Source: Vreelandella lionensis (GTDB taxonomy: Bacteria; Pseudomonadota; Gammaproteobacteria; Pseudomonadales; Halomonadaceae). Taken from it: DNA of 64,000 nt. The translations under genes were made by a program, and so were the position numbers. Under the pieces are notes generated by a model that searched no databases, was not told the DNA's origin, and was given only the letters and a program-made list of their open reading frames with translations. This document shows positions 51,242 to 59,737 of the stretch, one piece after another. The stretch spans positions 1 to 64,000 of the forward strand of contig NZ_MWVI01000074.1 of NCBI RefSeq assembly GCF_002087295.1, given 5' to 3'. Each line of letters opens with the position of its first letter. Position 1 is the stretch's first letter.

Positions 51242-51616
51242 CTAGCCTTCCACCCATACTTCATCGCCTTTGAAGGCGACGCGCCAATTGCGTAGCTGTA
51301 CCTCATCCTCCTCCAGGCATTGGCCATCTTCCAGGCGGAAGTGCTGCTTGTAGAGCGGAGAGGCCACCACGGGGCTGCCTTTGATATCGCCGACGATGCC
51401 GCGGGCAATCACATAGGCCTTCGAGAAAGGATCGAAGTGGTCCAGGGCATAGAGCTCTTGCGCGTGGCCGGGCAAATAGAACAGCGCCACTTGGGCGGGG
51501 CCTTCCGGTGTGTTCAGCCAAGCGGCAACGCCGGAAAAGGGCACGAGGTCTGCTCTGGTGCAGAGCGGCTGCCAAGTGTCGTTGCGGTTCGTTAGTTTGA
51601 GTACGGTAGCGGTCAT
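51242..51616 (-). CDS. nirD: Assimilatory nitrite reductase small subunit NirD
   Basis: The 124-residue Rieske-fold subunit of NAD(P)H nitrite reductase has WQPLCTRADLVPFSG, VALFYLPG, ALDHFDPFSKA and IVGDIKGSPVVASPLYKQHF. As usual for NirD, the Rieske Cys/His ligands are absent. It partners NirB, encoded 28 bases upstream, in ammonium formation. GAGGACGACC precedes the start. Confidence 0.9.
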   Translation of the reverse strand: MTATVLKLTNRNDTWQPLCTRADLVPFSGVAAWLNTPEGPAQVALFYLPGHAQELYALDHFDPFSKAYVIARGIVGDIKGSPVVASPLYKQHFRLEDGQCLEEDEVQLRNWRVAFKGDEVWVEG

Positions 51617-51644
51617 GGTCGTCCTCGATTCTTTGGTCACTGGG

Positions 51645-54186
51645 TTAAGCAGGGCGCAGCTGGCCGCGCTCGGAAGTCATGATGATGGAAGGGTCGGGCC
51701 GCGCATCATTCACAAAGCTTCTAAAGCGCTTGAGCTTTTCGGGGTCGCTGATGGCGTTGGCCCACTCGCACTGGTAGCTATCCACCACGTGCTGCATTTG
51801 GCGCTCCAGCTCATCGCTGATACCCAGGCTTTCTTCCCAGAATCCCCTCTTTCGGGTAGTCTAGCCCCCCCTCCAGGTTTTCCCGCCATACCGAGGTTCG
51901 CTGCAAACGGTCAGCGGTGCGTACGTAGAACATCAAAAAGCGGTCGATGGGGCGGTAGAGCTGCTCGTCATCTAAATCGGTGGCGAAGAGTTCCGCATGG
52001 CGGGGGCGCATGTCGCCGTTGCCGCACACGTAGAGGTTCCAGCCGTTTTCGGTGGCGATAATGCCAATGTCTTTGCTCTGCGCTTCGGCGCACTCCCGGG
52101 TACAGCCGGAAACCCCGAACTTGATCTTGTGCGGTGCGCGCAGGCCCTTGTAACGGTTCTCAAGCTGAATTGCCACGCCCACGCTGTCCTGTACGCCGTA
52201 GCGACACCAAGTGCTGCCTACACAGGATTTCACCGTGCGCAGCGACTTGCCGTAGGCGTGGCCGGTCTCAAAGCCTGCGTCGATCAGTTCGCCCCAAATG
52301 GCGGGCAGGTCTTCCAGCCGTGCGCCGAACAGGTCAATGCGCTGGCCACCGGCAATCTTTGTGTAGAGCTGGTACTTCTGGGCCACTTGCCCTAGCACCA
52401 CCAGCTTATCGGGAGTGATTTCACCGCCCGCAATGCGCTGCCCTACCGAGTAGGTGGCGTTTTTCTGCATATTGGCCATGAAGGTGTGGTTGGTGTCCTG
52501 CAGCGGCACGTGGGCGGCATCGGTAATCGGTTCGTTGAAGCAGGAGGCGAGAATCGAGGCCACCGCCGGTTTGCAGATATCACAGCCGAGGCGATGCGTC
52601 TCGGCATTGCCGTGCTTCTCCATTAGCTCGCTGAATGTCTTGATGCCTTCGACACGTACGATGTCGTAAAGCCCTTGGCGGGTATGGGCGAAGTGCTCGC
52701 AGATCGATTTATCCACTTCGACGCCGCGGGCCTCCAATTCGTGATCCACTACGCTTTTGAGCAGCGCCGCGCAGCCCCCGCAGCCGGTGCTGGCTTTGGT
52801 GGCGCCTTTAACGCTGCCAAGGTCAGCCGCGCCCGCGTCGATGGCACTGCAGATGCTGCCTTTCGTCACGTTGTGGCAGGAGCAGATCATCGCCGTTTCC
52901 GGCAAGGCATCCGGCCCCAGCGCCGGGGCAGCACCGCTTTGTTGCGGCAGAATAAGCGATGCGGGTTCCTTAGGCAGCTCGATGCCGTTGGCGTAGTACT
53001 GCAACAGCGTGTCATACACACTGTTATCGCCCACCAGCATGGCCCCCAGCAGCTTCTTACCGTCGCTGGTGACGACCAGTTTGCGGTAGACCTGGGTGAG
53101 CGGGTCGAGGTATCGGAACATGCGGGCGCCAGGGTTTTGGTTGCCGTGGGCATCGCCAATGGAGCCGACATCCACACCCAGCAGTTTTAGTTTGGTGCTC
53201 ATATCGGCGCCGCTAAAACAAATATCGCCCCCCGTCAGCGTGGCGACGGCCGTTTTGGCCATTTGGTAGCCAGGCGCCACGAGGCCAAAGATGCTCTGAT
53301 TCCACAGCGCTACTTCGCCGATGGCGAGGATATTCGGGACGTTGGTGCGGCACTGGTCATCGATCACCACGCCGCCGCGCTCGCCAATGGTCAAGCCGCA
53401 CTCCCGGGCGAGCGTATCCTGGGGGCGAATACCGGCGGAGAAGACGATCAGGTCGGTTTCCAGCACTTTGTCGTCTTGGAAGACCATCCGCAGGCGGCTG
53501 TTGTCGCCGGGTTCGATACGCTGGGTGGCCCTTTCGGTGAGTACCTGAACGCCAAGAGCTTCGATTTTCTCTTTCAGCAGCTCGCCGCCTTCGCTATCTA
53601 CCTGCATGGGCATCAGGCGCGGGGCGAACTCCACCACGGCGGTATCCAGGTTCAGCCCGCGCAGCGCGTTGGCGGCTTCCAAACCGAGCAGACCACCACC
53701 GACCACCACGCCGTTGGTGGCGTTTTTGGCCGCTGCCTGAATGGCATCCAAGTCATCCAGGGTGCGGTAAACCAAGCAGCCTTTGCTGTCGTTGCCGGGA
53801 ATGGGCGGCACAAAGGGAAAAGAGCCGGTGGCCAGCACGAGCTGGTCATAGGCGTAGTGGCCTTGTTCGGTCACCACCAGCTGCTGTTCGCGGTCAATCG
53901 CGGTGACCGCTTCGCCGCTGCGTAGTTGAATGCCGTGGGTGTGGTAGTAATCGCCATCGCACAGCGCCAGTGACTCCGCATCGCGGCCGCTAAAGTACTC
54001 GGATAAGTGCACGCGATCGTAGGCGCGGTGGCGCTCTTCGCCAAAAATCGTCACCTCAAACCCTGCCAGCGCGCCGCTTTCCACGAGCTGCTCGGCAAAA
54101 TGGTGGCCGACCATGCCGTTGCCTACAATGATCAACTTTTGCGTGTTGGAAGACGTGGTTGGAGTAGACATTGTGTGATTCACCAT
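51645..54186 (-). CDS. nirB: NAD(P)H nitrite reductase large subunit NirB, one frameshift
   Basis: The repaired protein has about 846 residues, as in NirB. FAD and NAD domains (IIVGNGMVGHHFAEQL, VVVGGGLLGLEAANAL) are followed by a BFD-type [2Fe-2S] domain (ICSCHNVTKG, GCGGCAALL) and the sirohaem/[4Fe-4S] reductase domain (GSTWCRYG, SGCTRECAEAQSKD). It reduces nitrite to ammonium by six electrons. An extra base in the C run 51844-51847 misreads the last 65 residues; the correct frame (ESLGISDELERQ) ends at 51645. ATG 54186 lies two bases after the upstream stop, so translation is coupled. Confidence 0.9.
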
Positions 54187-54188
54187 AG

Positions 54189-55508
54189 CTAAGCCGCCTC
54201 ACGGGTGAGAGATAAAGGGGATGACAGGGTGTCGAGAGGGTTGTCGAGATGGTTATCGAGCGCTGTTTGGGCATCGGTTGCGCCAAACAGCAACAGGTGG
54301 CGGCACGCGGTTAGGTCGGTCGCGGCCAGCGCCTGCTCGAAATACCAGGGGCCGTGACGGGTATCGCCATACAGCACCGCGCCAATTAAGCGGCCTTGAT
54401 GGAGCAGCAGGCGGCAGTAGTCGCCGGTTTCCGGGTCTTGGTAACGAAGCTCTTCGTGCTTGGCGGCGGGCTCGGTGGGGCCAAAGGCAAACAGGCTGAC
54501 ACCGCTGACCTTGAGTTTGGTGGCCGTGGGGGCTTCTTGATACGCCGCTGGCGTTTCACCACACAGCACGGCAGCAAGCACCTCCACCTGCCGCCAAATG
54601 GGTTCCACCAGCCCGTAAGTGTGCTGCTCGAACTGGCAGCATTCGCCCAGCGCATAAATGTGGTCGTCTGAGGTGGTGAGGTGCCCACCCACCACAATGG
54701 CGCGGTCGAATATAAGCCCGCTTTGCTGGCCTAGCTCCGCATGGGGGGTAATACCCGCCGCGACAATCACGCTGTCGGCAGCTAGCTTCCGGCCATCGCT
54801 CAGTGTGACCGACTGCACCTGCCCGTGGCCGTTATCCTCCAAGGCAGCAAGCGATGCGCCGGTTTCAATGATGATGCCGCGCTCGCGCAGCGTGGCTTCC
54901 AGCAATTGGGCGGCGGTGGTGTCTAGCTGGCGGTTCATCAACCGCACGCTGCGCTGTAAAACGCTGACGGTGAGCGCGCTACCGCCCCGTTTGCGCAGCC
55001 CTTCAGCGGCTTCCAATCCAAGTAAGCCGCCGCCAATCACCACGGCGTTGCCGCATTGCTGAGCAATAGCTTCTAAGGCGTCGGCATCGCGTAGGTCACG
55101 AAACGTATGAACACCGTCAAGCGTGATGCCAGGCACCGCTGGCAGCGTGGGGCGCGAGCCAGTGGCCATCACTAATCGGTCATAGCTTAAGATGTCGCCG
55201 CGATGCGTGAGGAGCAGGCGGCGTTCGCGGTCGATGGAGGTCACGCGGTCGCCAAGCGTCAGTGTGATGTTGTTATCGGCGTACCAGGAGGCGTCTTGCA
55301 GAGTGAGCGCCTCAGGCGCCAGTTCGCCCGCCAGTAAAGGAGAGAGCAAAATGCGGTTATAGGCAGGTACCGGCTCCTCACCCACCACTGTGATACGGCG
55401 GGGACGCTGCGGATGTTTCACCAGCGCTTCAAGTAGTCGGTGGCAAGCCATGCCGTTACCGATAATGACGAGGTGTTCGTTCTGTGAGCACCGGGAAGCG
55501 GTTTCCAT
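54189..55508 (-). CDS. NAD(P)/FAD oxidoreductase of assimilatory nitrate reductase (NasB-like)
   Basis: The 439-residue flavoprotein resembles the first half of NirB: IIGNGMACHRLLEAL (FAD) and VVIGGGLLGLEAAEGL (NAD), with VMATGSRP and ALGECCQFE. It probably passes electrons from NAD(P)H to NasA, as NasB/NasC subunits do. It has no BFD cluster of its own; NasA carries one at its C-terminus. ATG 55508 follows AGGAGC. It is the first gene of the nasB-nirB-nirD operon, immediately behind a leader terminator. Confidence 0.82.
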   Translation of the reverse strand: METASRCSQNEHLVIIGNGMACHRLLEALVKHPQRPRRITVVGEEPVPAYNRILLSPLLAGELAPEALTLQDASWYADNNITLTLGDRVTSIDRERRLLLTHRGDILSYDRLVMATGSRPTLPAVPGITLDGVHTFRDLRDADALEAIAQQCGNAVVIGGGLLGLEAAEGLRKRGGSALTVSVLQRSVRLMNRQLDTTAAQLLEATLRERGIIIETGASLAALEDNGHGQVQSVTLSDGRKLAADSVIVAAGITPHAELGQQSGLIFDRAIVVGGHLTTSDDHIYALGECCQFEQHTYGLVEPIWRQVEVLAAVLCGETPAAYQEAPTATKLKVSGVSLFAFGPTEPAAKHEELRYQDPETGDYCRLLLHQGRLIGAVLYGDTRHGPWYFEQALAATDLTACRHLLLFGATDAQTALDNHLDNPLDTLSSPLSLTREAA

Positions 55509-55541: not shown

Positions 55542-55593
55542 AAAAAAAAACCGCCCCTGACACAGCCCTTTCAAGAAGGGAGTATCAGGGGCG
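55542..55593 (-). terminator. Leader terminator (attenuator) of the leftward nas operon
   Basis: On the minus strand the arms CGCCCCTGA and TCAGGGGCG, with an inner AAGGG/CCCTT stem, are followed by nine T. It lies between the likely promoter and the first gene (start 55508), so full expression needs antitermination. Confidence 0.85.
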
Positions 55594-55645
55594 TCGTTGC
55601 CCGTTGGCGTCGTTGATAACGAACAGCAACCGCCGTTGGCTGCCG
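55589..55645 (-). promoter_or_regulatory. Twin hexaloop hairpins, ANTAR-type antitermination target
   Basis: On the minus strand hairpin 1 (55624-55645) has 8-bp arms CGGCAGCC and GGTTGCTG around loop AACGGC. Hairpin 2 (55589-55602) has arms GGGC and GCCC around loop AACGAC. Both loops have A at position 1 and G at position 4, the rule for ANTAR targets. Hairpin 2 shares its 3' arm with the terminator's 5' arm, so the two folds exclude each other. The linker is 21 bases. This is how NasR or NasT would free the operon in nitrate. Confidence 0.75.
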
Positions 55646-56063
55646 AACTGTCTTATCTTATGGTGAGCAAAAAGCCCGCCAGCTTTTGCCGTCGGTGGAT
55701 TTAATTCAGCCTAATCAGCGTATTAAGCGTTTTTGAGGAGGCGGCAGGTCGCTCATGGTTAGCTAGGCTTGCCCCACTTTGGCGCTTACAGCGGCGGTTA
55801 ATGCACTCTCTTCAACCGCTTATTCGACAAAGAACATTCCTTTGGCGAGTAGTAGAAATGCAGAGTGTGTTTTTAAGTGATTGTTTATTAAATGCTTTAG
55901 TGATTTTAGCGCAGCGTGGGCGCAGGGTTTGCAGTTATTCTGGTAACAAGCAACAACGGCTCAGTGCAGGGTCTTTGCCCATAACGATCACAACGACTAA
56001 TTGCGTCGAATAATACCAACTGCAGCAAATCACTGATGAGTACGGCACCCGGTAAGCGGTGCC
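55646..56063. other. Divergent nas promoter region
   Basis: This 418-base region between the two nas leaders should hold both promoters. I see no convincing gene in it. A hairpin (GGCACC / GGTGCC, 56044-56063) directly precedes the nasA leader hairpin. It occupies the place of an ANTAR first hairpin, but its loop has eight bases and does not fit the A1/G4 rule. A minus 24/minus 12 promoter could not be established. Confidence 0.4.
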
Positions 56064-56125
56064 CCTGAGACAACGGCGTCCAGGCAGGCTTCTTTCGAGG
56101 CTGGCTTTGGCGCTTTTTGCTTTTT
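56064..56125 (+). promoter_or_regulatory. Hexaloop hairpin and terminator in the nasA leader (ANTAR-type attenuator)
   Basis: Hairpin 56064-56084 pairs CCTG-(A)-GAC with GTC-CAGG around the loop AACGGC, identical to the first loop in the nasB leader. Its loop end and 3' arm form the 5' arm of a longer stem (56076-56092 with 56097-56113; 15 of 17 positions pair) followed at once by TTTTTGCTTTTT. The two folds exclude each other. nasA starts 20 bases downstream, so the structure would stop transcription unless an antiterminator holds the hexaloop. Confidence 0.75.
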
Positions 56126-56144: not shown

Positions 56145-58904
56145 ATGCCACAGGCCAATCGGCTCGCCCGAACCACCTGCCCCTACCGCGGCGTCGGCTG
56201 CGGCGTTACCGCCACGCTGGAGAACGAGCAGCTCATCGCCGTCGAAGGAGACCGCGAGCACCCAGCCAATTACGGCCGCCTGTGCGTGAAAGGCACCGCG
56301 CTGCACGAAACGCTGGGAGAGCAGGGGCGCTTGCTCAAGCCGCGCGTGGATGGAAAAGAGGTTTCTTGGGAGCAGGCGCTCCCCACCACCGCCGAACGCT
56401 TGCAGGCGCAGCGTAGTGCCCATGGCCCGCAGTCGGTGGCGGCATATTTATCTGGCCAGTTATTAACCGAAGATTATTACGTTGCCAACAAGCTGTTTAA
56501 AGGCTTTTTGGGCACCCCTCACCTGGATACCAACTCGCGGCTCTGCATGGCGTCTTCCGTGGCGGGCTACAAGCGCGCCTTTGGTGCCGATGCGGTGCCT
56601 TGCAGCTATGAAGACTTAGAAGAGGCGGAACTGGTGGTGCTGGTAGGGTCTAACCTTGCCTGGAATCATCCGGTGCTCTATCAGCGCTTGAAGGTAGCCA
56701 AAGAGCGCAACCCGCTGATGCGAGTCGTGGTGATCGACCCTCGAGTGACCGACACCTGCGAAATTGCCGATCTTTATCTGGGCATTCGTCCGGGCAGCGA
56801 TGCTTACCTGTTTAATGGGCTGCTGGCGTGGATGGCTGACCACCAGCGCCTAGATAGCGTTTACCTGGAGCGACACACCGAAGGGCTGGAAGATGCGCTG
56901 AGTGCCGCTCGGCAGAATTCAGGACAGAGTGTAGGAGAGAGTGCAGGAGAGAGTGCAGGCAGCGTGGAAGCCGTCGCCCGCGAGTGCGATGTGGACCCTG
57001 AACGCCTGGAAACTTTCTACTACTGGTTTGCCAGCCAGCTGCATGTGGTCACGCTCTACTCCCAGGGGGTGAATCAATCCTCCAGCGGTACCGATAAGTG
57101 CAACGCGATTATCAACTGCCACTTAGCGGGCGGGAAAATCGGCCTGCCGGGGGCGGGGCCGTTTTCGATCACCGGCCAGCCCAACGCCATGGGCGGTCGA
57201 GAAGTGGGCGGGCTAGCCAATCAACTGGCGGCGCATATGGATTACCACACGCCGGGCGCTCGTGAATTAGTCAGCCGCTTCTGGGCCACCAAGCATTTAA
57301 CCCCGGCACTGCCTGACGCCCCGGGTTACAAGGCGGTAGAACTCTTTGACGCCATCGAGCGTGGCGAGATTACCGCTCTGTGGGTGATGGCGACCAATCC
57401 GGCGGTGAGCATGCCGGATGGGGAGAAAGTGCGCCGCGCGCTGGCAAAATGCCCGCTGGTGATCGTTTCGGAGTGCGTCGCCAATACTGACCTGCTGCCC
57501 TTTGCGGATATCGTGCTGCCCGCGTCGGGTTGGTCGGAGAAGGATGGCACGGTGACCAACTCAGAGCGGCGAATTTCCCGCCAGCGGGGGATGCTGCCTC
57601 CTCCCGGAGAAGCGAAGCACGACTGGTGGATACTCTGCGAAGTGGCTAAGCGCTTAGGTTTTAGTGAGGCGTTCAGCTATACCCACCCGTGGGAGATTTG
57701 CGATGTGCACGCACGCCTCTCTGGCTATGAGAATAGCGGCGAGACTCAGCGGCTGTTCGATATCTCAGGGCTGGTAGGCCTGGGCCAAGCGGCTTATGAT
57801 GCGCTCGCACCGATCCAGTGGCCCGTGACTCAGCAGGCTCCTCGCGGCACGGCAAGGCTGTTCGAAGATGGCCGGTTTGCTACCGCGAATGGCCGAGCCA
57901 AACTGCTGCCGATTACTCCGCGACCACCGGAGCAGCCGCTGAGCGACGACTACCCGCTGCGCTTGAATACCGGTCGCGTGCGGGATCAGTGGCATACCAT
58001 GACGCGTACCGCCCGTGCGCCGCGCTTGATGAACCACCGCGCCGAACCGTTCATTGAGCTGCACCCAGACGATGCGGCTCAGGCAGGCTTAACGGATCAG
58101 GGCTTGGCGACGTTGACCGCTGCCGCCGGGGAGTACCGTGGGCGGGTGCGGGTTTCCAACGCCCAGCGCCGAGGCGAAGTCTTCGTGCCGATGCACTGGA
58201 CCGACTGCTTTACCAAGCAGGGTCGCAGCGGTGCACTGATTAAAGGCTATACCGACCCGCTCTCCGGGCAGCCGGAAGCCAAGCAGGGGGCGGTGGCGGT
58301 GAGTAAACTCCCCATTGCTTGGCAGGCGACGCTGCTGCTAGCCAACGAGTTGGATACGCAACCATCGCCCTGGTGTCGCAGCGACTACTGGGCGCGCATT
58401 CCGATGGCAAGCTGCACCCGTTGGCAGCTAGCGGATAGCCAGCCAGTTAAGGATTGGCTGGCGCAGGTGGAAGCGTGGCGCGGCATGCCTGTCTCTTTGT
58501 GGTGTGACGACCCGGCAACGGGTAGGCTGCGCGCAGCGGGAGTAGTGAACGGGCGGCTGCGCTGGTGGTTGATGGTGGGGCCACCCGACGAACTGCCCGG
58601 GCTTGCCTGGCTTGAAGCGCGCTTCAATGACGCTACCCTGGAGACACAGCACCGTAGACGCCTGCTGGCCGGGTGCGATGATGGTGCTGTTGATACCGGC
58701 CCGGTGGTGTGCAGCTGCCACCAGGTTCGCCAAGCCAGCATTGTGAAAGCGATTCATGCGGGCGATACCAGCGTAGAAGCGTTAGGCGCACGACTGGCCT
58801 GCGGCACCCAGTGCGGCAGCTGCCTACCCGAACTAAAAGCGATACTTGAAGAGGAGCGGCCCCATGCGCGCGCTAAGCAAACAGCTAACACAGAAGTGGC
58901 CTGA
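56145..58904 (+). CDS. nasA: Assimilatory nitrate reductase catalytic subunit NasA
   Basis: The 919-residue cytoplasmic molybdoenzyme reduces nitrate to nitrite. It has an N-terminal [4Fe-4S] domain, Mo-bis-MGD domains (TNSRLCMASSVAGYKRAFG with the likely Mo-Cys, GVNQSSSGTDKCN, MATNPAVSMPD) and a C-terminal BFD [2Fe-2S] domain (VVCSCHQVRQ, CGTQCGSCLPEL). The first cluster motif reads CPYRGVGCG: Arg 15 replaces a Cys ligand (codon CGC for TGC, 56187-56189). A Ser/Gly/Glu-rich insert near 262-272 comes from short DNA repeats. GGAGG precedes the ATG. Expression is probably controlled by the leader attenuator. Confidence 0.9.
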   Translation: MPQANRLARTTCPYRGVGCGVTATLENEQLIAVEGDREHPANYGRLCVKGTALHETLGEQGRLLKPRVDGKEVSWEQALPTTAERLQAQRSAHGPQSVAAYLSGQLLTEDYYVANKLFKGFLGTPHLDTNSRLCMASSVAGYKRAFGADAVPCSYEDLEEAELVVLVGSNLAWNHPVLYQRLKVAKERNPLMRVVVIDPRVTDTCEIADLYLGIRPGSDAYLFNGLLAWMADHQRLDSVYLERHTEGLEDALSAARQNSGQSVGESAGESAGSVEAVARECDVDPERLETFYYWFASQLHVVTLYSQGVNQSSSGTDKCNAIINCHLAGGKIGLPGAGPFSITGQPNAMGGREVGGLANQLAAHMDYHTPGARELVSRFWATKHLTPALPDAPGYKAVELFDAIERGEITALWVMATNPAVSMPDGEKVRRALAKCPLVIVSECVANTDLLPFADIVLPASGWSEKDGTVTNSERRISRQRGMLPPPGEAKHDWWILCEVAKRLGFSEAFSYTHPWEICDVHARLSGYENSGETQRLFDISGLVGLGQAAYDALAPIQWPVTQQAPRGTARLFEDGRFATANGRAKLLPITPRPPEQPLSDDYPLRLNTGRVRDQWHTMTRTARAPRLMNHRAEPFIELHPDDAAQAGLTDQGLATLTAAAGEYRGRVRVSNAQRRGEVFVPMHWTDCFTKQGRSGALIKGYTDPLSGQPEAKQGAVAVSKLPIAWQATLLLANELDTQPSPWCRSDYWARIPMASCTRWQLADSQPVKDWLAQVEAWRGMPVSLWCDDPATGRLRAAGVVNGRLRWWLMVGPPDELPGLAWLEARFNDATLETQHRRRLLAGCDDGAVDTGPVVCSCHQVRQASIVKAIHAGDTSVEALGARLACGTQCGSCLPELKAILEEERPHARAKQTANTEVA

Positions 58905-59737
58905 AGCGCTGTGGCGCTTGGGTCAGAGGGCGTGGGCACCTTTTAGTCGCGACACCGCCGCTCGTTTACACCTGCCGTTAAGCGGTGAGTGCCAGCCGGG
59001 AACCGTCTATTTAGTCGGCGCAGGCAGCGGCGATGTCGAGCTGCTGACGTTAAAAGCCGCGCGGTTGCTAATGCAGGCAGACGCAGTAGTGTATGACCGC
59101 CTTGTCGGGGACGAGGTGTTAGGGCTCATTCCTCCGGGCACCGCGCGCTACTACGTCGGCAAAGCCAGCGGCCATCGCAGCATGCCGCAGGCAGAAATTG
59201 GTGCGCTGATCGTCTCCCTGGCCCAGGCAGGCAAATCGGTAGTGCGCTTGAAGGGTGGCGACCCCGGCGTGTTTGGGCGCATGGGCGAAGAGTTAGCGGC
59301 TCTGGCAGAGGCCGAGCTGCCCGCAGAGATTGTGCCGGGTATTACCGCCGCCTCCGCCGCAGCGGCGGGGATGGGGATCCCGCTTACTGATCGCGGCCAC
59401 GCCCAGCAGGTGGGTTTTATTACGGCTCAGTTATGCCGGGAAGGCGGTATGCCGGACTGGGCGTCGCTGGCGCGTCAAGACGAGACCCTTGGTGGCCGCC
59501 ATTTGCCATGGCCTGCGCCAAGCGGGCCTGCCCGATACGTGGCCTATCATGCTGGTGGCCAACGCCAGCCAGCCCGAGCAGCAGTCCCTGGTGGGCACGC
59601 TAGCCGATATGCCCGAACGCCTCGCCGCTCAGCCGCTGCCATCGCCCTGCCTCATTATGGTGGGGAGTGTGGTCAGTATGGTGACCCATAGCCCAGCTGC
59701 TACGGGCGCACAGGAGCAGCATTGTCAGCAGGCCTGA
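58864..59737 (+). CDS. cobA: Uroporphyrinogen-III C-methyltransferase (SUMT), one frameshift
   Basis: The repaired product is about 290 residues. After a 45-residue extension it has the SUMT core: VYLVGAGSGDVELLTLKA, VVYDRLVG, VVRLKGGDPGVFGRMGEE and PGITAASAAAAGMGIPLTDR. It makes precorrin-2, the first step to sirohaem, the NirB cofactor, which explains its place behind nasA. It overlaps nasA by 41 bases and has GAGGAG before ATG 58864. An extra G at 59491-59492 breaks the last third. There is no CysG dehydrogenase/ferrochelatase domain, so another enzyme must finish sirohaem. Confidence 0.85.

Follow-up and report, generated by a model that had tools for sequence, protein, structure and literature searches.

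The divergent nitrate-assimilation genes of Vreelandella lionensis raise the question of whether both of their transcripts are controlled by ANTAR antitermination with a NasR-type protein. The locus lies in the 64,000-nucleotide stretch analyzed here (the window), which is part of contig C75 of a 3.65 Mb assembly in 100 contigs that is 80% complete; the encoded NasA is 96% identical to that of Vreelandella (Halomonas) aquamarina, the nearest named genome by this protein. The left operon, on the minus strand, begins with a gene for a nasB-like FAD/NAD(P) oxidoreductase (54189..55508), which resembles the N-terminal half of NirB and scores below the NirB cut-off, and also comprises nirB (nitrite reductase large subunit, 51811..54186), the C-terminal end of which is broken relative to kin, and nirD (nitrite reductase small subunit, 51242..51640). 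The right arm, on the plus strand, starts with nasA (56145..58904), the assimilatory nitrate reductase catalytic subunit with a C-terminal BFD-like [2Fe-2S] domain, named by domains and gene context since its product reaches no NCBIfam cut-off (the best nitrate reductase model being NasC, with 422.7 of 1100 bits). At positions 56187-56189, the NasA motif reads CPYRGVGC, against CPYCGVGC in kin L012, so that a likely iron-sulphur cysteine is replaced by an arginine, through either sequence error or decay. A tetrapyrrole methylase gene with a probable role in siroheme synthesis lies 3' of nasA (58846..59737, plus strand), and its frame, broken in the assembly, is intact in L012 (304 aa). The two arms diverge from an intergenic gap of 636 bases. 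This arrangement is common among relatives: in the 45 loci with a placeable gene start, a divergent nasB-like gene lies at most 807 bases from nasA in 41 and about 2.3 kb away in three (L015, L017 and L018), and was not found near nasA in one (L102).

NasR is described as binding two hairpins, P1 and P2, with C:G-closed loops that prefer A at the first and G at the fourth position (A1/G4) (PMC7496416), and in ANTAR leaders P2 and the terminator are reported to be mutually exclusive (PMC7496416, PMC3369931). The leader of the left transcript conforms closely to this description. Its P1 (55624..55645, minus strand) reads CGGCAGCC-AACGGC-GGTTGCTG and its P2 (55589..55602, minus strand) reads GGGC-AACGAC-GCCC, both with six-nucleotide A1/G4 loops and C:G closing pairs. 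The intrinsic terminator (55542..55593, minus strand) consists of a hairpin at 55593-55552 (GCCCCTGATAC...GTGTCAGGGGC) and nine T at 55550-55542, and P2 overlaps it in the correct orientation: the terminator 5' arm opens with the four bases (GCCC) that end P2, so that the two structures are mutually exclusive. The initial annotation, which had reported hexaloops AACGGC and AACGAC followed by an overlapping terminator with nine T, is thus borne out for this arm. Folding of the left leader beats 200 of 200 shuffles. Over the 64 kb, the two strands carry 26 and 24 C:G-closed A1/G4 hexaloop hairpins of at least four stem pairs, and the left P2, with P1 upstream, is the only one on either strand to overlap a terminator 5' arm under a stem rule that the right P2, with its bulge and 3-bp upper stem, falls below.

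The leader of the nasA transcript presents the same overlap in a less regular form. Its P2 (56064..56084, plus strand), CCTG-a-GAC-AACGGC-GTC-CAGG, has one bulged base and an A1/G4 hexaloop, and its 3' arm lies within the 5' arm of the intrinsic terminator (56076..56125, plus strand), formed by a hairpin at 56076-56113 followed by TTTTTGCTTTTT. A hairpin with loop AACGGC inside an overlapping terminator had been annotated at this place, and A1/G4 identity had been assigned to the three hexaloops named; left P1, left P2 and right P2 all conform. The right P1 (56044..56063, plus strand) retains the conserved stem GGCACC/GGTGCC around an eight-nucleotide, non-canonical loop lacking A1/G4, and the right arm therefore carries one canonical hexaloop, not two. 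On these sequence features, the right leader would work like an ANTAR two-hairpin antiterminator of which the P2 half alone is canonical. Its folding beats 190 of 200 shuffles (z = -1.64), and the terminator has one stem mismatch that is absent in close kin such as L012. A candidate for a second right-arm hexaloop near the nasA start site, GGCTC-AGTGCA-GGGTC (55958-55973), has A1/G4, but was rejected after no hairpin was called there in most kin. Just after the nasA promoter, positions 55945-55975 contain an AACAAG-n-AACAA..GCTCATTGCAG-like stretch that is similar in many kin and was not called as a hairpin. An Rfam scan of the window returned no match above thresholds, and the sub-threshold matches to CRISPR-DR65, SR6 and sR35 were put down to chance.

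A two-hairpin covariance search had been proposed in the initial annotation, together with an alignment of leaders from kin and a genome search for the regulator, and all three agree with its reading. The left covariance model, built from 23 relatives after exclusion of the window and its five closest kin, matched positions 55586-55647 on the minus strand with 67.5 bits and E 4.8e-15 (next-best match, E 0.05 in the window and E 1.0 in the genome), and the right model, from which the window and its closest kin had likewise been excluded, matched 56035-56086 on the plus strand with 58.4 bits and E 1.6e-15 (next match, 0.4), all E-values being rough owing to the short model calibrations. The right site was the only match in the genome at E ≤ 0.1, and neither model found a rival to its leader there.

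Both leaders are conserved among relatives. Across 80 loci, window included, the left P2 of the searched form is present in 73 and its overlapping terminator in 71, while the corresponding figures for the right leader are 78 and 72. The left P2 was not found in L015, L017, L018, L102, L105, L106 and L155, nor the right P2 in L015 and L158; among these 80 loci, the left terminator was not called in L021 and L024, and the right terminator was not called in L017-L021 and L024, some of which show hairpins by eye with short T runs. Left P1 hairpins (C:G-closed, stem of at least four pairs) were called in 53 of the 63 genus loci having a left P2 and uncalled in 10.

Alignments of the two leaders revealed compensatory changes in their stems. 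For the left leader, 48 of 74 loci (the 80 minus the window and five close kin) could be parsed, and in the 23 non-redundant sequences kept 99.6% of cells are paired, a value inflated by the selection of rows for forming hairpins. Three pairs changed on both sides, a number reached by 30 of 500 shuffles, and seven cells did so, against 1.9 in shuffles and with none of 500 shuffles reaching seven. For the right leader, rows were picked only by P2 loop letters and terminator call: 71 of 74 loci were parsed, six without a terminator call and near-duplicates were dropped, and of the 20 kept, 19 (18 distinct rows) were used, omitting L023. In these, 98.5% of cells are paired, against at most 42.4% in slid versions of the alignment, with four pairs changed on both sides (1.1 in shuffles) and 11 such cells (3.8 in shuffles); the outermost P2 pair is G-C in nine and C-G in eight of the 18 rows.

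The loops of the nasA leader bear on the possibility that the left leader is the sole NasR target, with the nasA leader answering to something else or acting as a plain attenuator. This proposal draws on the right P1, which has a loop without A1/G4 both in the window and among most kin: P1 hairpins were called in 66 genus loci, 45 of them with a six-nucleotide loop, and these include six A1/G4 loops and 33 with G4 and no A1. In this P1 the stem has thus been preserved, but the loop has departed from the consensus at its first base. Nevertheless, the P2 loop of the nasA leader is AACGAC in 34, AACGGC in 31 and AACGCA in one of 67 genus loci (one without a call), a uniformity partly preset by a search pattern that required A2, G4 and a first letter from a short list. 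The compensating stem changes, the retention of a canonical P1 loop (AATGGC) in L105 and the tracking of ANTAR genes by this leader, detailed below, also argue against a separate control of nasA, which we regard as unlikely.

To the extent that the leaders are ANTAR targets, they should be accompanied by ANTAR genes, and such genes were identified in 67 of 80 genus relatives. At E ≤ 1e-4, the left model matched 62 of the 67 ANTAR-positive genomes and none of the 13 ANTAR-negative ones; at E ≤ 1e-8, the right model, run on 80 of 81 genomes (G004 left out), matched 65 of 67 ANTAR-positive genomes (own included) and none of 13 negatives, whose best E was 4e-4. Strong matches were absent from five ANTAR-positive relatives for the left model (G024, G035, G036, G066 and G080) and from two for the right model (G035 and G042). 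Assimilatory-type NasA, called by a best piece above 600 bits (four genomes having the gene in pieces or broken, and G035 one that is 54% identical), was detected in 66 relatives, all ANTAR-positive, and in none of the 13 ANTAR-negative genomes, several of which are incomplete; it was missing from a single ANTAR-positive genome, G042, which is 66% complete. Fisher P values for leader and ANTAR gene co-occurrence are 3e-11 (left) and 3e-13 (right), disregarding kinship, and the counts are not independent, given that the genomes are related and some were used to train the models. Were the hairpins plain terminators or chance structures, with no ANTAR protein involved, the terminators by themselves would be conserved too, but this would leave the conservation of P1, which lies outside the terminator, and of the loop letters without explanation, as well as the strict co-occurrence of leaders and ANTAR genes at the cut-offs used, and we consider such an account extremely improbable.

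The initial annotation had ascribed both leaders to an ANTAR regulator, of either NasR or NasT type, acting in trans. No ANTAR gene was indeed found in the 64-kb window, and a PF03861 search of the genome identified a single one (C75:84174-84332, minus strand), which lies on the window's own contig, some 20 kb beyond the end of the window, so that the regulator would act in trans. The open frame of this gene contains NIT and ANTAR domains, identifying it as nasR, and the gene adjoins a preceding gene for a NarK-type nitrate transporter (TIGR00886, 306.8 bits against a cut-off of 311.7). In the related locus L173 the nasR copy is intact, and its product covers residues 12-415 of the 424 residues of Klebsiella oxytoca NasR (PDB 4akk; E 2.3e-51). 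While the ANTAR-type assignment stands, the choice between the two types thus falls on NasR.

A NasT/NasS pair in place of NasR would have precedent, in that NasST is reported in other Halomonas (PMC8014003) and NasT likewise acts on leader hairpins (PMC6759348, PMC5424462), and an assembly that is 80% complete leaves room for such a pair. It is, however, very improbable as the regulator: the single ANTAR match of the genome combines NIT and ANTAR, no ANTAR protein of NasT size was found in the 80%-complete assembly, and for 63 relatives out of 67 the best ANTAR match lies in a NasR-size frame of at least 400 codons, the remaining four frames being short or located at contig ends. A second ANTAR match in a shorter frame (111-277 codons) was observed in 12 of the 80 relatives (G010, G012, G021, G028, G033, G037, G043, G045, G046, G052, G058 and G064). 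In a further relative (locus L155, genome G035), a distant NasA (54% identity) is encoded right next to an ANTAR gene, with an AACGCA hairpin over a terminator, as if this module had been acquired separately.

The reading frame of nasR itself (C75, ~84050-85420; L001:1468-2731, minus strand) is broken in this assembly, with the ATG at L001:2731 out of frame with a 403-codon open frame. Along with the arginine in the CPYC..C motif of NasA and the stem mismatch in the nasA terminator, this frameshift could indicate that the switch is decaying in this lineage. Against this, of the 42 genes compared with those of kin G029 over positions 8508-63999 of the window, 16 are broken, and 14 of these 16 lie outside the nas/nir genes, which makes assembly indel error the likelier cause of the broken nasR and methylase frames; with the nasR copy of L173 intact as well, decay appears quite unlikely.

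Upstream of both leaders we identified putative promoter elements, assigned by consensus strings that we take to represent sigma54 and NtrC sites. On the left, a sigma54-like GG-N10-GC match, TGGCGGGCTTTTTGCT (55666..55681, minus strand), precedes P1. Most of 18 loci have GG-N10-GC elements before their leaders, and in most of them a TGGC..TTGC-like element starts about 35-45 nt before the start of left P1, as scored without a shuffle control. On the right, a putative GG-N10-GC element, GGGCGCAGGGTTTGCA (55918..55933, plus strand), precedes the nasA leader, and a counterpart was called, by a caller without threshold or control, in 67 of 80 loci, the 13 uncalled cases being due mostly to the short stretch scanned. 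Between both promoters lies an NtrC-like site, TGCCCCACTTTGGCGCT (55770..55786, no strand assigned), with 10 of 13 fixed positions. A palindrome of this kind with at least nine of 13 positions is found between the arms in all 18 loci scanned, with a mean best score of 10.6 of 13, against 8.2 in simple shuffles.

Together, these results lead us to propose, at a probability of roughly 0.88, that ANTAR antitermination with a NasR-type protein controls the two divergent nitrate-assimilation transcripts. Under nitrogen limitation, NtrC bound between the arms would fire the two sigma54 promoters, and by default each transcript would soon meet its intrinsic terminator and stop. With nitrate or nitrite present, the NasR-type protein (NIT sensor plus ANTAR), encoded beside narK, would bind the leader hairpins and stabilize P2. 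The 3' arm of P2 being the beginning of the terminator 5' arm, the terminator would be blocked while P2 is held, and polymerase would then read into the nasB-like gene and nirBD on one side and into nasA on the other, such that one ANTAR protein could release both arms together. The combination of sigma54/NtrC control with NasR would give an AND gate of nitrogen limitation and nitrate, as has been described for Klebsiella (PMC5424462), here probably on both arms.

Outside the window, the genome also carries a leader upstream of narK (C75:86897-86978, minus strand; L189:2910-2991), preceded by a sigma54-like element. A conserved RNA occurs at this position in relatives, as seen in the 30 best genus narK loci and in all 40 further model matches fetched (38 from other genera), these 40 being taken from the lower part of a list of 81 matches. 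It follows the pattern G-R-CG-TRGACCAG-(hairpin of variable letters)-ACGAGTG-CGYC-...-CCTTC-AAYGNN-GAAGG, in which an invariant TRGACCAG...ACGAGTG element encloses a covarying hairpin and precedes the only A1/G4 hexaloop hairpin. A pattern requiring A1 fits 68 of the 70 leaders, 67 of which also have G4, the exceptions being L191 (loop G1) and L293 (five-nucleotide loop). Two-sided changes affect 37 cells in the 63 distinct cores; 32 of these cells belong to the first hairpin and none to the closing GRCG/CGYC stem, and none of 500 shuffles gave more than 20 such cells. The genus-only alignment (18 of 21 non-redundant sequences from the 30, omitting L195, L209 and L216) displays no covariation because it contains almost no variation, and a model-derived alignment, being gappy, was kept out of the counts. 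Matches to this leader were found in 81 of 161 family genomes, spanning 13 of 24 genera; at the level of the order, 12 of 390 genomes gave matches, each of them from Halomonadaceae. Outside the genus, in the 80 of 131 family genomes covered, the leader is present in 31 of 51 ANTAR-positive and none of 29 ANTAR-negative genomes. It has no match in Rfam at E ≤ 1.

No T run was seen after the narK-leader hairpins, and this RNA therefore appears to be something other than a terminator leader. Constrained folding gave no support to a translational switch, freeing the ribosome site no more than in shuffles (mean change 0.045 versus 0.069, 45 leaders). Forcing the 5' closing stem and the hexaloop hairpin raised the value by more than 0.1 in 19 leaders and lowered it in nine, at a mean cost of 10 kcal/mol; the closing stem is within the predicted minimum fold in six of the 45 leaders, and complementarity of the 3' leader to the conserved segment is patchy. 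It is possible, though we hold it only tentatively, that Halomonadaceae ANTAR proteins run a three-transcript nitrate regulon with two RNA outputs, in which terminator leaders control nasB/nirBD and nasA while the terminator-less narK RNA acts at another step. Since no intrinsic terminator is seen in it, the output of the narK leader would on this proposal be exerted at a step such as translation or RNA stability.

A different RNA bearing the name narK RNA is already catalogued in Rfam as RF03032. Its consensus starts with a sigma54-like GGCaCAgcucUUGC, continues with a P1 of GGcagCC-AACGGC-GGcugCC and can form CGAC-AAAGAC-GUCG, a second A1/G4 hairpin whose letters are in the consensus and whose pairs are absent from the Rfam structure shown. 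At E ≤ 1e-3, our search with this model returned 16 loci (L303-L318), two of them over the Rfam threshold, distributed over 15 of the 369 class-level genomes. Although selection by the model favours P1 and the letters of P2, 11 of the 16 loci, including both above-threshold ones, have, in this order, two C:G-closed A1/G4 hairpins with stems of at least four pairs and, by eye, a T run downstream, which suggests that RF03032 is probably an ANTAR site and, together with its promoter element, probably comprises a sigma54 promoter plus such a site. The remaining loci have the first hairpin only (L309 and L312) or the second only (L310, L313 and L317). The left leader of the window shares with RF03032 the sigma54-like element, the AACGGC-type P1, the second A1/G4 hairpin and the T run of the loci examined, whereas its P2 sequence differs and its score, 20.0 bits, falls below the gathering threshold of 43.2. 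It was the best of nine weak matches in the genome at E ≤ 10, none over the cut-off, and weak matches also occurred in 13 of 14 control genomes. From this shared layout, the left leader is probably a divergent ANTAR site of RF03032 type without being a member of the family. No paper on RF03032 or on the narK leader was found in a partial coverage of the literature.

The proposed switch is closest to the K. oxytoca nasF leader and NasR, which share an NIT plus ANTAR regulator, a two-hairpin A1/G4 target, a P2 overlapping the terminator and Ntr control (PMC7496416, PMC5424462). Compared by description rather than by leader sequence, the Klebsiella system governs one operon, whereas here there are two divergent operons, a narK leader and a degenerate nasA P1 loop. 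The NasT/NasS systems (Paracoccus nasA leader; Bradyrhizobium nosR and other leaders) likewise combine an ANTAR protein, leader hairpins, nitrate genes and several targets per genome, and NasT-type hairpins have been predicted before narK and bjgb (PMC6759348), but their sensor is a separate protein, NasS, whereas here sensor and RNA-binding domain are joined in one. The EutV two-hairpin antiterminators have the same general ANTAR anatomy with a different regulator and pathway (PMC3369931). The two-hairpin antiterminator, its A1/G4 loops and multi-operon nitrogen regulons are thus already published (PMC3369931, PMC7496416), as is nasR in Halomonas, in an article whose passages on NasR do not name the leaders (PMC8014003). 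No report of the present nas leaders was found in the literature covered, which was partial, and these leaders are distinguished by their double placement, which is uncommon, and by the degenerate P1 on one arm.

The arrangement described here has one nitrate-sensing antiterminator placed to gate both halves of the reduction of nitrate to ammonium, each behind a sigma54-like promoter. For the Rfam narK RNA, the probable ANTAR site within RF03032 provides a candidate function. Because some first loops have A1 and others lack it, the leaders constitute a natural series on what ANTAR proteins read, and, should the tentative three-transcript regulon prove true, the G..G.. loop of the nasA P1 would show that A1 is dispensable in the first loop.
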